64,000 nt of DNA from Lentisphaerae bacterium GWF2_49_21 (GTDB taxonomy: Bacteria > Verrucomicrobiota > Lentisphaeria > Victivallales > GWF2-50-93), in NCBI GenBank assembly GCA_001804805.1, contig MHBH01000032.1, positions 114,299 through 178,298 on the forward strand, written 5' to 3'. Of the stretch, positions 14,472 to 20,396 are shown piece after piece. Within the stretch, counting starts at the first letter, position 1. Every line of letters begins with the position of its first letter. The notes beneath the pieces were generated by a model. That model searched no databases. It saw only the letters and a program-made list of their open reading frames with translations, and had not been told where the DNA came from. The position numbers and the translations under genes are program-made.

Positions 14472-17400
14472 TTATTTAATATCCGCGTGATAATCCTGGA
14501 GGGACTTTACGCCCTTCCTGCTCTTCTGTGTCGCGGCGATCCCTTTTGCCGTGGCGCTTGCCGCTGCAAGGGTGGTGAAATACGGGATCTTGTATTTTAT
14601 CGCCGACTTCCGTATATACGAATCATCTTCCTTGCTCATCTTTCCGATAGGAGTGTTGATGATCAGGTTGATGTTCTTGTTCGCGATCGCGTCAAGTATG
14701 TTCGGACGTCCTTCATGGAGTTTCAGCACCTGTTCCGACTTCACGCCGTGCTTGGCCAGGAATTCCATGGTTCCACCTGTCGTGAGTATCTTGAAGCCGA
14801 TCTTCGTGAACTCCTTTGCGATCTCGACCACAAGCGGCTCCTTCGAGCAGAGGCTCATCAGCACCGTGCCGCTTGTTGGAAGCACAAGCTGTGTCGCTTC
14901 CTGCGCCTTGTAGAATGCGAATCCGAAGGAGTCTGCAAGCCCGAGAACTTCGCCGGTAGATCTCATTTCCGGTCCGAGGATCGGATCGACTTCCGGGAAC
15001 ATGTTGAACGGAAATACGGATTCCTTGACGCCGAAATGCGGGATCTTCTTGTGTTTCAGCTTCATCGCGGAAAGCTTCTTACCGAGCATAAGTTCCGTCG
15101 CCAGCCTTGCCATCTGTATGTTGCAGACCTTGGAGACAATTGGAACTGTCCTCGATGCGCGAGGGTTCGCTTCGAGCACATAGACCTTGTCGTCGGCAAT
15201 GGCATACTGGATGTTCATCAGCCCGACGACATTCAGCTCGCAGGCGATCTTCCTTGTGTATTCATTTATTGTATCAAGGTGTTTTGCGGGTATCGTCACC
15301 GGCGGGATCACGCAGGCTGAATCGCCGGAGTGGATTCCTGCAAGCTCGATATGTTCCATGACTGCCGGCACGAAGGCCTCCTTGCCGTCGGCAAGAGCAT
15401 CAGCTTCGCATTCGAGCGCGTTGACAAGGAACTTGTCGATGAGGAGAGGACGGTCCGGCGTCACGTTCACCGCCGCCGCGACGTACTGCCTCAGCATCTG
15501 TTCGTCGTAGATGACTTCCATTCCGCGTCCGCCGAGGACGAATGAAGGGCGGACCATCAGCGGATAGCCGATACCGCCGGCAATCTTCAGCGCCTCGTCG
15601 ATCGTTGAAGCCATTCCGGATTCCGGCATCAGGATATTCATCTTCTCCATCTTCTTGCGGAAGAGGTCGCGGTCTTCGGCGACAGCGATTGTTTCAACAG
15701 TTGTTCCGAGGATCGGGACTCCGGCATCCTGGAGTTCCGCGGCTATGTTGAGAGGCGTCTGGCCTCCGAACTGCACGATCACGCCCATCGGCTTTTCCTT
15801 CTCGTATATGCTCAGCACATCTTCAACGGTCAGCGGTTCGAAATACAGCTTGTCAGAAGTGTCATAGTCCGTGGAGACAGTTTCGGGATTGCAATTGACC
15901 ATGATCGTCTCATAGCCCTGGTCGCGAAGTGCGAATGCGGCATGGACGCAGCAGTAGTCGAACTCGATTCCCTGTCCGATCCTGTTCGGTCCGCCTCCGA
16001 GTATCATGACCTTCTTGTTCTTTGTGACCTTGGTGACGTCCTTCGCATTGTATGTCGAATAATAATAGGCGGCATTTTCGACGCCGCTCACCGGTACCGG
16101 ATGCCATCCCTCGACAACACCGAGCTTGATGCGCTGTTCGCGTATTTTCTTCTCTGGTATTTCAAGTATCCTGGAGAGGTATTTGTCGGCGAATCCATCC
16201 TTCTTGGCCTGGACAAGGAGCTTGTCGGGGAGTTTTCCGCCCTTGTGCTTGAGCATCTCCTCTTCGAGCTGGACGAGTTCACGCATCTGGTTTATGAAGT
16301 AGGCCTTGATATGGGTCAGGCTGTGGAGTTCCTCGGTCGACGCTCCTTTTCTTATTGCCTCATACATGATCCACTGACGTTCGCTGGTAGGCTCAACGAG
16401 CATCGCGAGGAGCTCCTTGAGGGGCTTGCTGTTGAAGTCCTTAGCGAATCCAAGACCGTGCCTGCCGTTTTCGAGGGAACGGATCGCCTTCTGGAAGGCC
16501 TCCTTGTAGTTCTTTCCGATGCTCATGACTTCGCCGACGGCCCGCATCTGAGTACCGAGCTTGTCCTGGACGCCCTTGAATTTTTCGAATGCCCAGCGCG
16601 AGAATTTTACGACGACATAGTCGCCGGAAGGAGTGTATTTCTCAAGCGTCCCGTCACGCCAGTATGGAATATCGTCCAAGGTGAGTCCGCCTGCGAGTTT
16701 CGCAGAGACCTGTGCGATGGGGAATCCTGTTGCCTTCGAAGCGAGCGCCGATGAACGCGAAGTGCGTGGATTGATCTCGATCACGACGACTCTTCCGGTC
16801 TTCGGATCATGGGCGAACTGTACGTTTGTCCCGCCGATGACCTCGATGGCGTCGACAATGTCATATGAATATTTCTGCAGCTTCTCCTGGAGGGATTTGC
16901 TGATGGTCAGCATCGGAGCCGTGCAGTATGAGTCGCCTGTATGGACTCCCATCGCATCGACGTTCTCTATGAAACAGACGGTTATCTTCTGGCCTTTGGC
17001 GTCGCGTACAACTTCAAGTTCAAGCTCCTCCCATCCGAGGACCGATTCCTCGATGAGGATTTGTCCGACAAGGCTCGCGGCTATTCCGCGTGCGGCGACA
17101 GCGCGCAGCTCTTCGAGATTGTAGACAAGGCCTCCGCCTGTTCCGCCCATAGTGTAGGCAGGACGCACTACGACGGGATAACCGAGTTTGTCCGCGATCT
17201 TTTCAGCTTCTTCCACGGTATAGGCGGGATCGCTTTTCGGCATGTCGATACCGAGCTTGCTCATCGTCTCCTTGAACACAATCCTGTCTTCTCCGCGCTC
17301 TATCGCCTCGAGGTTGACTCCGATTATCTTCACGCCGTATTTCTTCAGGACGCCGGCCTTGCCGAGTTCGGATGAGAGATTGAGCGCAGACTGTCCGCCG

Positions 17401-17669
17401 AGATTAGGGAGCAGGGCGTCCGGACGTTCCTTCTCTATGATTTCAGTCATCCTGGCGAGATTGAGCGGTTCGATGTATGTGACATCCGCCATGCCTGGAT
17501 CTGTCATTATTGTGGCGGGATTGGAATTGACAAGTACGATCTTGTAGCCGAGGGACCTGAGGGCTTTGCATGCCTGGGTGCCGGAATAGTCGAACTCGCA
17601 GGCCTGTCCGATGATGATCGGGCCCGAACCAATGATCATCACCTTCGAAACACCTTTTACTTTTGGCAT
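14472..17669 (-). CDS. carB: carbamoyl-phosphate synthase large subunit
   Basis: This 1065-residue enzyme makes carbamoyl phosphate from bicarbonate, ATP and ammonia for arginine and pyrimidine synthesis. It has two ATP-grasp halves starting KVMIIGSGPIIIGQACEFDYS and, near residue 555, KVMILGGGPNRIGQGIEFDYC. The C-terminal allosteric MGS-like domain has ILTTGGTMEFLAKHGV. Length is normal. The small subunit carA is not in the window. Its ATG overlaps the end of a 50-codon upstream ORF, and GAGGTG lies 5 bases before the ATG, so initiation may be coupled to that ORF. argH further upstream on the same strand fits an arginine context. Confidence 0.96.
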   Translation of the reverse strand: MPKVKGVSKVMIIGSGPIIIGQACEFDYSGTQACKALRSLGYKIVLVNSNPATIMTDPGMADVTYIEPLNLARMTEIIEKERPDALLPNLGGQSALNLSSELGKAGVLKKYGVKIIGVNLEAIERGEDRIVFKETMSKLGIDMPKSDPAYTVEEAEKIADKLGYPVVVRPAYTMGGTGGGLVYNLEELRAVAARGIAASLVGQILIEESVLGWEELELEVVRDAKGQKITVCFIENVDAMGVHTGDSYCTAPMLTISKSLQEKLQKYSYDIVDAIEVIGGTNVQFAHDPKTGRVVVIEINPRTSRSSALASKATGFPIAQVSAKLAGGLTLDDIPYWRDGTLEKYTPSGDYVVVKFSRWAFEKFKGVQDKLGTQMRAVGEVMSIGKNYKEAFQKAIRSLENGRHGLGFAKDFNSKPLKELLAMLVEPTSERQWIMYEAIRKGASTEELHSLTHIKAYFINQMRELVQLEEEMLKHKGGKLPDKLLVQAKKDGFADKYLSRILEIPEKKIREQRIKLGVVEGWHPVPVSGVENAAYYYSTYNAKDVTKVTKNKKVMILGGGPNRIGQGIEFDYCCVHAAFALRDQGYETIMVNCNPETVSTDYDTSDKLYFEPLTVEDVLSIYEKEKPMGVIVQFGGQTPLNIAAELQDAGVPILGTTVETIAVAEDRDLFRKKMEKMNILMPESGMASTIDEALKIAGGIGYPLMVRPSFVLGGRGMEVIYDEQMLRQYVAAAVNVTPDRPLLIDKFLVNALECEADALADGKEAFVPAVMEHIELAGIHSGDSACVIPPVTIPAKHLDTINEYTRKIACELNVVGLMNIQYAIADDKVYVLEANPRASRTVPIVSKVCNIQMARLATELMLGKKLSAMKLKHKKIPHFGVKESVFPFNMFPEVDPILGPEMRSTGEVLGLADSFGFAFYKAQEATQLVLPTSGTVLMSLCSKEPLVVEIAKEFTKIGFKILTTGGTMEFLAKHGVKSEQVLKLHEGRPNILDAIANKNINLIINTPIGKMSKEDDSYIRKSAIKYKIPYFTTLAAASATAKGIAATQKSRKGVKSLQDYHADIK

Positions 17670-17999: not shown

Positions 18000-19013
18000 C
18001 TATTTCAGCAGCATAGTGAGATGGGATTCAACTGCGAGGGCAAGCCCTCCTGTGTTGTAGCCGCCTTCGAGGAGGGAGACGACTCTGGATTTCGAGTAGG
18101 TGCCGGCAAGCCCCATGATCATTTCCGTCAGTCTGGCAATGCCTTTGTCCGTGACCTTGAAGTCGCCTAGCAGATCATCCTTCCTGCAGTCGAAGCCCGC
18201 GGAGATCAGGATCAGCTCAGGTTTGAAATTTTCGGCCGCGGGGAGGAGTTTATTCTCAAACGCATCTATGATCGCCTTGTCGTCGGCACCTGAGGGCAGG
18301 GGGGCGTTGATGTTGAAGCCGTATCCTTCTCCCTTGCCTTTTCTGTCGGGGAATCCGGTGAAGGGAAAAGCTTCAAGCTTATGGGTGGAGAAGAAAAAGA
18401 CCGAAGGATCCTCGTAGAAGGTCCACTCGGTACCGTTGCCGTGATGGAAATCCCAGTCGGCTATCAGGATCCTTTTCAATCCATATTTCTCTTTTGCGAA
18501 CTTCGCAGCTATCGCGACGTTGTTGAAGAAACAGAAGCCGTATTCGCCAGTGTCCGTTGCATGATGGCCGGGTGGGCGCAGGGCGCAGAACGCATTTTTC
18601 GCCTTTCCGGTACATACGGCATCGACAGCGGCAAGGGCTCCGGATACGGCAAGCCTGCAGATCTCAGGAGAACGCGCCTGTTTTTCAACAAGCTTGATGT
18701 GTTTTTCGGAATGGACTTTGCTGATCCATTCCGTGGCATCCTTGTCTTCAGGCGCAATCTTTATAAGATCGTCTTCAAGCCCTGAATCCCTGAGTCTTTT
18801 CAAGATGGCCTCAAGCCTCTTAGGAGATTCAGGGTGGCCTTCTGAAAGGAGATGCGAGAGATATTTGTCGCTGTAGATGAAGGCGGTTTTGGAATTTTTG
18901 TCCTTGATAAGGTTTTCAGCAAAAGCTGGCAGAGGCGTGGAAAATCCTGCGGCAAGTCCGGCGGCCGCGGCGGATCTGATGAAACTTCTCCTTGATATTC
19001 CTTCGTCTTTCAT
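18000..19013 (-). CDS. Tat-exported histone deacetylase-family hydrolase
   Basis: The catalytic domain is that of the zinc-dependent deacetylase superfamily, which in bacteria includes acetylpolyamine and acetoin-type hydrolases. Motifs are RPPGHHA (His150, His151), DWDFHHGNGT (zinc ligands Asp188 and His190), SAGFD (third ligand Asp275) and LLEGGYN. The N-terminus is a twin-arginine signal (SRRSFIRSAAAAGLAAG, Arg8-Arg9), so the folded metalloenzyme should be exported. The start lies 9 bases after argH and has no clear ribosome site, which suggests read-through translation from argH. The substrate is unknown; exported acetylated amines or acetylated glycans are possible. Confidence 0.88.
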   Translation of the reverse strand: MKDEGISRRSFIRSAAAAGLAAGFSTPLPAFAENLIKDKNSKTAFIYSDKYLSHLLSEGHPESPKRLEAILKRLRDSGLEDDLIKIAPEDKDATEWISKVHSEKHIKLVEKQARSPEICRLAVSGALAAVDAVCTGKAKNAFCALRPPGHHATDTGEYGFCFFNNVAIAAKFAKEKYGLKRILIADWDFHHGNGTEWTFYEDPSVFFFSTHKLEAFPFTGFPDRKGKGEGYGFNINAPLPSGADDKAIIDAFENKLLPAAENFKPELILISAGFDCRKDDLLGDFKVTDKGIARLTEMIMGLAGTYSKSRVVSLLEGGYNTGGLALAVESHLTMLLK

Positions 19014-19022
19014 GTCGACGGA

Positions 19023-20396
19023 CTACTTTTGGAGTTTCTTGCGCCAGTAGTCGATGCGGCTGCGGACTTCGCACGGACCTGTTCCTCCGTCAACCTCGCG
19101 CTTGGATACGCTCCTGGCAGGATCGAAGATTTTAAGCAGGGCCTTGTTCGCTTCGGGAATGTGCTTTTTCATCTCGTTGAAAGAGACTTTGTTCAGCGGG
19201 ACTTTGTTGGAGCTGCACCATTTGACAAGAGCACCGGTCCTCTCGTGCGCCTTTCTGAACGGCACGCCGAGTTTCACAAGTTCCTCGGCAAGATCTGTCG
19301 CCATGAGCTCCGGATTGTTCGCGGCCGCAAGCATCTTTTCCTTCCGCACGTGCATTGTCGCCAGCATGGGAGGCAGGACGGACAATATCTTGATGACTGT
19401 GTCGATGGAATCAAACAGCGGTTCCTTGTCCTCCTGCAGATCCCTGTTATATGACATTGGAAGACCTTTGCAGATCGTAAGGAGCGCGACAAGGTTTCCA
19501 TAGATCCTGCCGGTTTTTCCGCGCGCGAGTTCCGCAACATCAGGATTCTTCTTCTGCGGCATCAGGCTCGAGCCTGTGCAGAATTCATCGGCGAGTTCGA
19601 CAAAGGAGAATTCCCTGGAAGACCAGAGGACGATGTCCTCGGACAGGCGCGAGACATGCATTGCGAATATCGCAAGGCATGCGAGGAATTCGCATTCGAA
19701 ATCACGGTCGGCCACCGCATCCATGCTATTGGCGGATATTTCCGGGAATGACAGGTCCTTCGCGACTTTTTTCCTGTTTATCGGAAGTGTCGTTCCGGCG
19801 ATCGCCCCGGAACCAAGCGTAAGGATGTTGAGCCTGCCAAGACAGTCCAGTAGCCTTGAGGAATCGCGGCTGAACATTTCAACGTATGCCAGCATATGAT
19901 GCGCGAAAAGGACCGGCTGGGCATGCTGTAGGTGCGTGTAACCGGGCATTATGGCGTTGGAATTATTCTCTGCCTGGGAGACCAGGGCTCTTTGGAGGTT
20001 TCTGATGCCTAGGACAATTTTTACAGACTCATCCCTGAGATAGAGCCTGGTGTCTAGATTTACCTGGTCGTTGCGGCTTCTCGCCGTATGGAGCCTTGCA
20101 CCCTCGTCACCGAGCGCCTTGATTATTTCGCTCTCGATATGCATATGGATGTCTTCAAGCCTGCTGGTGAACTTGAATCTGCCTTCGTCTATGCGTTTCC
20201 GGATCTTCTCGAGCTCCCTCTTGATGGATTTTGCGGTTTTCGCAGGAATTATCCTGCAGGACGCCAGCATGTCGACATGGGCCTTGCTGCCGTCGATGTC
20301 ATGGCTGTAGAGCCGCTTGTCGAACGACACGGATTCCGTGAATTCAATCAGTTCATTCTTCTGTCCGCCGCTGAATCTTCCGCTCCAGAGCGCCAT
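19023..20396 (-). CDS. argH: argininosuccinate lyase
   Basis: ArgH splits argininosuccinate into arginine and fumarate, the last step of arginine synthesis. The fumarase/aspartase-superfamily signature GSSLMPQKKNPD is intact. MALWSGRFSGGQ at the start, HTARSRNDQ and PGYTHLQHAQP are all typical. Length (457) is normal. GAGGT lies 5 bases upstream. It is followed after 9 bases by the exported deacetylase-like gene, and carB lies further down on the same strand. Confidence 0.96.
   Translation of the reverse strand: MALWSGRFSGGQKNELIEFTESVSFDKRLYSHDIDGSKAHVDMLASCRIIPAKTAKSIKRELEKIRKRIDEGRFKFTSRLEDIHMHIESEIIKALGDEGARLHTARSRNDQVNLDTRLYLRDESVKIVLGIRNLQRALVSQAENNSNAIMPGYTHLQHAQPVLFAHHMLAYVEMFSRDSSRLLDCLGRLNILTLGSGAIAGTTLPINRKKVAKDLSFPEISANSMDAVADRDFECEFLACLAIFAMHVSRLSEDIVLWSSREFSFVELADEFCTGSSLMPQKKNPDVAELARGKTGRIYGNLVALLTICKGLPMSYNRDLQEDKEPLFDSIDTVIKILSVLPPMLATMHVRKEKMLAAANNPELMATDLAEELVKLGVPFRKAHERTGALVKWCSSNKVPLNKVSFNEMKKHIPEANKALLKIFDPARSVSKREVDGGTGPCEVRSRIDYWRKKLQK

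Follow-up and report, generated by a model that had tools for sequence, protein, structure and literature searches.

The window analysed here (the whole stretch of DNA under study, 64,000 nucleotides in length) contains a gene whose product is read as a classical HDAC/HdaH-type zinc amidohydrolase, exported by the twin-arginine (Tat) route and deacetylating primary amines, whether in small molecules or in peptides, outside the cytoplasm, a reading that is considered probable. The protein belongs to a clade of classical deacetylases with a shortened L2 loop, in which three phyla have Tat-exported members, as judged from predicted signals; these members form a recurring lineage, and the window gene is no isolated oddity. 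While the expected reaction is a usual one for this fold, the location and the trimmed rim of the active site are the new part. According to the proposed mechanism, the deacetylase would fold and bind its metal in the cytoplasm, cross into the periplasm through the Tat translocase, and there hydrolyse acetyl-amides of primary amines, either N-acetylated small amines or short or flexible acetyl-lysine-like peptides, with Zn2+ and Tyr319 polarising the carbonyl and His151 activating the water. The sequence shows the fold, the full catalytic set, the Tat signal, the start site, the loop deletion and the recurrence within the clade; export itself, activity and the kind of substrate are inferred.

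Enzymes of the HDAC fold have usually been studied as cytoplasmic or nuclear regulators and as polyamine enzymes. The main text of a survey of approximately 38,000 bacterial sequences (PMC11532494), in the part available, mentions neither periplasm nor export, signal sequence or twin-arginine, and the available part of a study of class IV localisation, mostly eukaryotic (PMC13325672), contains neither ‘periplasm’ nor ‘Tat’. Among the open-access papers listed in literature searches, none was seen to report a Tat-exported HDAC-fold enzyme, although the signal could well be flagged already in automatic annotations. The same portion of the survey describes Legionella LphD/Smh1, likewise a classical deacylase that acts beyond the bacterial cytoplasm; that enzyme enters host cells by type IV secretion, whereas the window protein is predicted to use Tat. 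Export within a clade that has lost this rim loop would imply either that acetylated extracytoplasmic substrates are frequent enough for export to be favoured repeatedly, or that the fold serves as an amidase in an additional role, and the clade offers testable proteins (one of them from Methylophaga) as well as a clean natural deletion with which to probe the role of L2.

The gene, its start codon and its catalytic domain

The catalytic domain is recognised by the Pfam profile PF00850 across residues 60-334 (E 4e-85, 286 bits, against a curated cut-off of 27.9), and this is the only PF00850 match in the window’s genome. An initial annotation, made from the DNA alone, had assigned the protein to the histone-deacetylase fold with Asp188, His190 and Asp275 intact; that assignment stands, and its numbering is exact. 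These three residues, together with His150, His151 and Tyr319, were invariant in a 15-sequence alignment, and all six positions were identical in 91 of 91 rows of a larger one. The motifs RPPGHH and EGGY, in which the two histidines and the tyrosine lie, are described in the consulted part of PMC11532494 as marks of robust deacetylases. The positions of these and other features are collected in the table.

Table. Positions of the deacetylase gene, its sequence features and its neighbours within the window
Feature	Position	Strand	Basis
Coding sequence, classical zinc deacetylase with predicted export, 337 aa	18000..19013	(-)	ATG start, PF00850 match, alignment
Residues 1-32, predicted Tat signal peptide with probable cleavage after A-F-A32	18918..19013	(-)	TIGR01409 residues 6-32; cleavage site by eye
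Twin-arginine motif S7-R8-R9-S10-F11-I12-R13	18975..18995	(-)	sequence
Shortened L2 loop, residues 101-125, with diagnostic His105	18639..18713	(-)	clade alignment; model
Catalytic His150-His151 of RPPGHH	18561..18566	(-)	alignments
Zinc ligands Asp188 and His190 (DFH)	18444..18452	(-)	alignments
Zinc ligand Asp275	18189..18191	(-)	alignments
Gatekeeper position, 281-Leu-Leu-Gly-283	18165..18173	(-)	alignment; PMC11532494 comparison
Catalytic Tyr319 of EGGY	18057..18059	(-)	alignments
argH, 9 bases upstream of the deacetylase	19023..20396	(-)	ORF list; adjacency absent in L002
carB, downstream of the deacetylase	14472..17669	(-)	adjacency kept in L002

The start of the gene is tightly constrained. 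The TAG of argH lies in the frame of the deacetylase and is followed by three codons and then the ATG (the 9-base gap already reported in the initial annotation), so that no earlier start is available. The next in-frame ATG, GTG or TTG is a TTG at codon 71, past the conserved H60-P61-E62...R66 and inside the catalytic domain; another usual start therefore cannot trim off the Tat signal. A true start downstream of that signal, which had been named as one finding that would undo the proposal of export, is accordingly ruled out as far as ATG, GTG and TTG are concerned. Read by eye, the DNA ahead of the ATG shows no clear Shine-Dalgarno sequence.

An AlphaFold2 model of the deacetylase (mean pLDDT 84) was compared with known structures using VIA-align, and the 50 matches shown, with Z-scores of 38.8-40.7, correspond to the arginase/deacetylase alpha-beta fold. 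The top match was 5ji5 (Z 40.7, rmsd 1.6 over 280 residues), an HDAC-superfamily protein of Burkholderia phymatum that is likewise compact, with a 305-residue chain, and that phmmer matches over residues 43-335; its solved chain differs in showing the core only. The HDAH of Pseudomonas aeruginosa followed at Z 40.6, Bordetella HDAH and Acinetobacter baumannii Kdac1 at approximately 40, and HDAC6 at approximately 39, while the closest sequence matches (phmmer) were the class II lysine deacetylases HDAC6 and HDAC4. The class II-like deacylases among these share the fold and the full catalytic set with the window protein, which differs from them in having an added Tat signal. It also differs in size: the mature protein would comprise approximately 305 residues, as compared with 342-374 in bacterial class II-like chains, and it is 60-70 residues shorter than the HDAH chains, a figure taken from chain lengths. 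In sub-cluster 1b HdaH (in the naming of PMC11532494), an extended L1 loop and a C-terminal helix make the tetramer.

A predicted Tat signal and the clade in which it recurs

The N-terminus of the deacetylase, MKDEGISRRSFIRSAAAAGLAAGFSTPLPAFAEN, displays the layout of a Tat signal, with SRRSFIR followed by a hydrophobic stretch (SAAAAGLAAGF...) and a putative cleavage site, PAFA/EN. The NCBIfam model TIGR01409 matched residues 6-32 with 19.1 bits (cut-off 16.7), and Pfam PF10518 matched the N-terminus with 18.0 bits, below its own cut-off of 22.7. When TIGR01409 was run against the whole genome at E<=1, ten matches were obtained, among which the deacetylase ranked second; several of the others appeared sulfatase-like and one aldo/keto reductase-like when read by eye. 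The genome also encodes the translocase, with TatC (E 1.6e-50) and TatA (E 1.9e-15) matching contig C13 approximately 100 bases apart. The signal identified by the initial annotation is thus borne out by a profile above its cut-off and by a start fixed by the argH stop.

The history of these codons was assessed against the deacetylase homologue of Lentisphaerae bacterium GWF2_50_93 (locus L002), which is 77% identical. Across 18 signal codons, 8 were identical, 7 synonymous and 3 non-synonymous, versus 1 identical, 2 synonymous and 14 non-synonymous in the next 17 codons of the linker; by this codon comparison, the signal is under purifying selection and the linker behind it is not. The case for predicted Tat export of the deacetylase is strong: its start is fixed, the signal itself is present and under selection, the genome has tatA and tatC, and 23 relatives of three phyla show the same layout.

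Relatives were collected from three sets: 288 genomes of the window’s own phylum, 90 of which matched at E<=1e-20; 369 genomes from the class to which Methylophaga sp. OBS3 belongs, 20 of which matched at 1e-60; and 167 genomes of the phylum of L009, Fibrobacteres, 17 of which matched at 1e-75. Tat signals were read in 3, 13 and 7 genomes of these groups respectively, counts that are not comparable as frequencies because the E limits differ. In the window’s phylum, 70 loci were taken from approximately 100 listed matches, and N-termini were read wherever an open reading frame was found by pattern; none was found by pattern in L080-L083, L091 and L092. A quick tree of 108 domains placed all 24 recognised Tat proteins, which derive from Lentisphaerota, Gammaproteobacteria and Fibrobacterota, within one clade of 45 (SH-aLRT 99), and none of the 63 sequences outside it bore the Tat label. 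A more careful tree of 91 rows likewise placed 15 of 15 Tat proteins in one clade of 24 (support 100/99).

Most of these Tat labels were assigned by eye, and TIGR01409 alone detects 7 of the 45 members. At E<=1 it matched 7 of 45 clade N-termini versus 0 of 63 others, a check that is independent of the labels, and four further models (formate_TAT, HybA, CueO and PhsA) also matched clade N-termini, all of them models of Tat-exported or Tat-signal families; HybA, CueO and PhsA are Tat substrates. A mechanical rule’s ‘Tat?’ was overruled by eye for L042, L061, L066, L089 and L110 (the last being the least certain), either because the arginine pair had no hydrophobic stretch after it or because it lay ahead of a better start; L042 and L110 were relabelled Sec, and L004, missed by the rule, was labelled Tat. 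Its ‘Sec?’ was rejected for L059 and L095, L037 and L078 were labelled Sec by eye after the rule had missed them, and the labels of L138-L161 were assigned by eye throughout. L098 and L108 have GTG starts and are weaker cases, with a TAG within the L098 match. Left out before either tree were L097 (a duplicate of L007), L106 (a near copy of L107) and the distant L086, L087, L089, L090 and L094-L096; the 108-domain tree also omitted L084, L085, L088 and L093, which formed the outgroup of the 91-row tree, and the duplicates L150, L154 and L156.

Within the clade, the Tat label changes 7 times on the 108-domain tree, which corresponds to several gains or losses. The gammaproteobacterial genomes G440, G419, G535 and G602 each hold a Tat copy with the short loop and a normal-loop copy without a signal, and the Fibrobacterota genomes G296, G701 and G702 hold signal-bearing and signal-less copies that both belong to the short-loop clade. 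The signal is absent from 21 of the 45 members, including L003 (65% identical), so the chemistry of the clade also serves inside cells. That absence also lends something to the view that the window enzyme is not exported at all, its N-terminus being a membrane anchor or going unrecognised while the enzyme works in the cytoplasm. Such a view is nevertheless very improbable in light of the SRRxFIR consensus, the profile match above cut-off, the genomic tatA and tatC, and a signal that is under selection, recurs in three phyla and, in the Tat members L004 and L140, is accompanied by a cysteine at a lipobox-like position (by eye).

A separate group of sequences combines Sec-like signals with a normal L2 loop: L042, L047, L051, L058, L071, L075 and L078, which form one clade (98/96) in the 91-row tree, and in addition L035, L037, L110 and L068. 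It would seem, then, that enzymes of the HDAC fold came to be exported on more than one occasion. The generalisation in the initial annotation that members of this family are normally cytoplasmic therefore survives in part: it accords with the lack of Tat labels among the 63 sequences outside the clade, but 11 of those 63 appear Sec-like by eye, and the exported members form a lineage of their own.

The shortened L2 loop and the likely substrate

The segment from His101 up to Gly125, corresponding to L2, comprises 24 residues in the window protein. Its length is 24-26 residues in all 45 clade members as opposed to 38-44 in all 63 others, a deletion of approximately 15 residues that holds for the window protein as well, and residue 105 is His throughout the 45 members but Tyr in 61 of the 63 others. 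In the AlphaFold2 model, the region forms a tight turn between helices 103-112 and 116-134, with pLDDT of about 87-90. Nearly half of the clade (the 21 members noted above) has the deletion but lacks a signal; the short loop is thus a mark of the clade and not of export. As described in the available part of PMC11532494, L2 is the polyamine-specificity loop of cluster 4, where it is extended, and in sub-cluster 1b it holds a hairpin in the tetramer interface; its loss would accordingly be expected to widen the rim and to change how the enzyme oligomerises, and it probably yields a compact, more open active site.

The loop and the gatekeeper bear on whether the enzyme might be an exported acetylpolyamine deacetylase that recovers polyamines from their acetylated forms in the surroundings, a role that is judged quite unlikely. 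The fold family does include such enzymes, and bacterial acetylpolyamine amidohydrolases (cluster 4) share with the window protein the superfamily, RPPGHH and EGGY, according to the portion of PMC11532494 consulted. The same source gives the gatekeeper motif as PEG in human HDAC10 and PIS in the cluster-4 polyamine enzymes, and reports that replacing Glu with Leu in HDAC10 shifts preference to lysine over polyamine substrates. In the window protein, the HDAC10-type Glu is missing and Leu282 stands in its place within LLG, a motif that would argue against HDAC10-type polyamine specificity; the extended L2 of cluster 4 is missing as well, being replaced by the shortened segment, and the nearest structures are class II-like and not of cluster 4.

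Lysine side chains of proteins represent a second candidate substrate. A periplasmic protein-lysine deacetylase that reverses acetylation of envelope or secreted proteins would fit the closest sequence matches, which are class II lysine deacetylases, and the gatekeeper Leu, which is the same in HDAC6 CD2. The L2 rim segment is deleted, however, and in HDAC8 that segment carries an Asp that grips the peptide backbone; this role is rated unlikely. The broader proposal that a lineage of HDAC-fold enzymes without the L2 rim loop is exported by Tat and deacetylates lysines of envelope proteins or extracellular peptides is likewise speculative and doubtful. If true, it would place reversible acetylation, or at least its reversal, in the periplasm, and at the cell surface in those Fibrobacterota with a sorting-type tail. 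Under the favoured reading, in which primary amines are deacetylated in small molecules or in peptides, the export signal and membership in a clade with a trimmed active-site rim place the target probably outside the cytoplasm, and an extracytoplasmic acetylated substrate, as proposed in the initial annotation, may fairly be inferred.

Gene surroundings and C-terminal tails

The short distance to argH invites the idea of a substitute acetylornithine deacetylase (an ArgE replacement) serving arginine biosynthesis. That idea was rejected as scarcely credible: the genome encodes ArgJ (E 1.1e-138), the product is predicted to be exported, and in L002 argH is not adjacent, with a DUF218 gene (L002:4287-4985) abutting the deacetylase start at the corresponding position. 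Because the adjacency is not kept in a 77%-identical relative and ArgJ is present, the proximity of argH carries no functional message.

The surroundings of other clade members were examined in a set that included 17 loci fetched together (the HDAC of L130 was left unassigned there). Of 12 gammaproteobacterial clade loci, 8 have genes for the Aat and Ate transferases close to the deacetylase gene, no more than a few genes away, and most of these 8 also have kdsB-like and lpxK genes; a GGDEF-EAL protein precedes the deacetylase in Methylophaga and in one other genome. The gammaproteobacterial surroundings are mostly housekeeping, the Fibrobacterota loci displayed no common neighbours beyond small clusters, and among the loci read no neighbour recurred across phyla in a way that would hint at a shared pathway or substrate. 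As a separate observation, L134 and L135, from two genomes that belong to one taxonomic order, each have a Sec-signal HDAC whose neighbours are a metallo-beta-lactamase-fold protein, a fusion of nucleotidyltransferase and GHMP kinase, and a rhamnosidase-like protein.

Four Tat members from Fibrobacterota (L158-L161) carry an extra C-terminal piece of approximately 90 residues with the look of a sorting domain for type IX secretion; searched against Pfam and NCBIfam, it matched no model of type IX or other known sorting domains. A similar tail occurs in another clade member (L011:538-1716), in which no N-terminal signal was seen in the three upstream frames read. When a profile (A2) built from these five tails was run against the four genomes of L158-L161, eight more copies came up, all of them weaker (2.4e-5 to 0.009); the two copies that were read (L176 and L177) both end large open reading frames.
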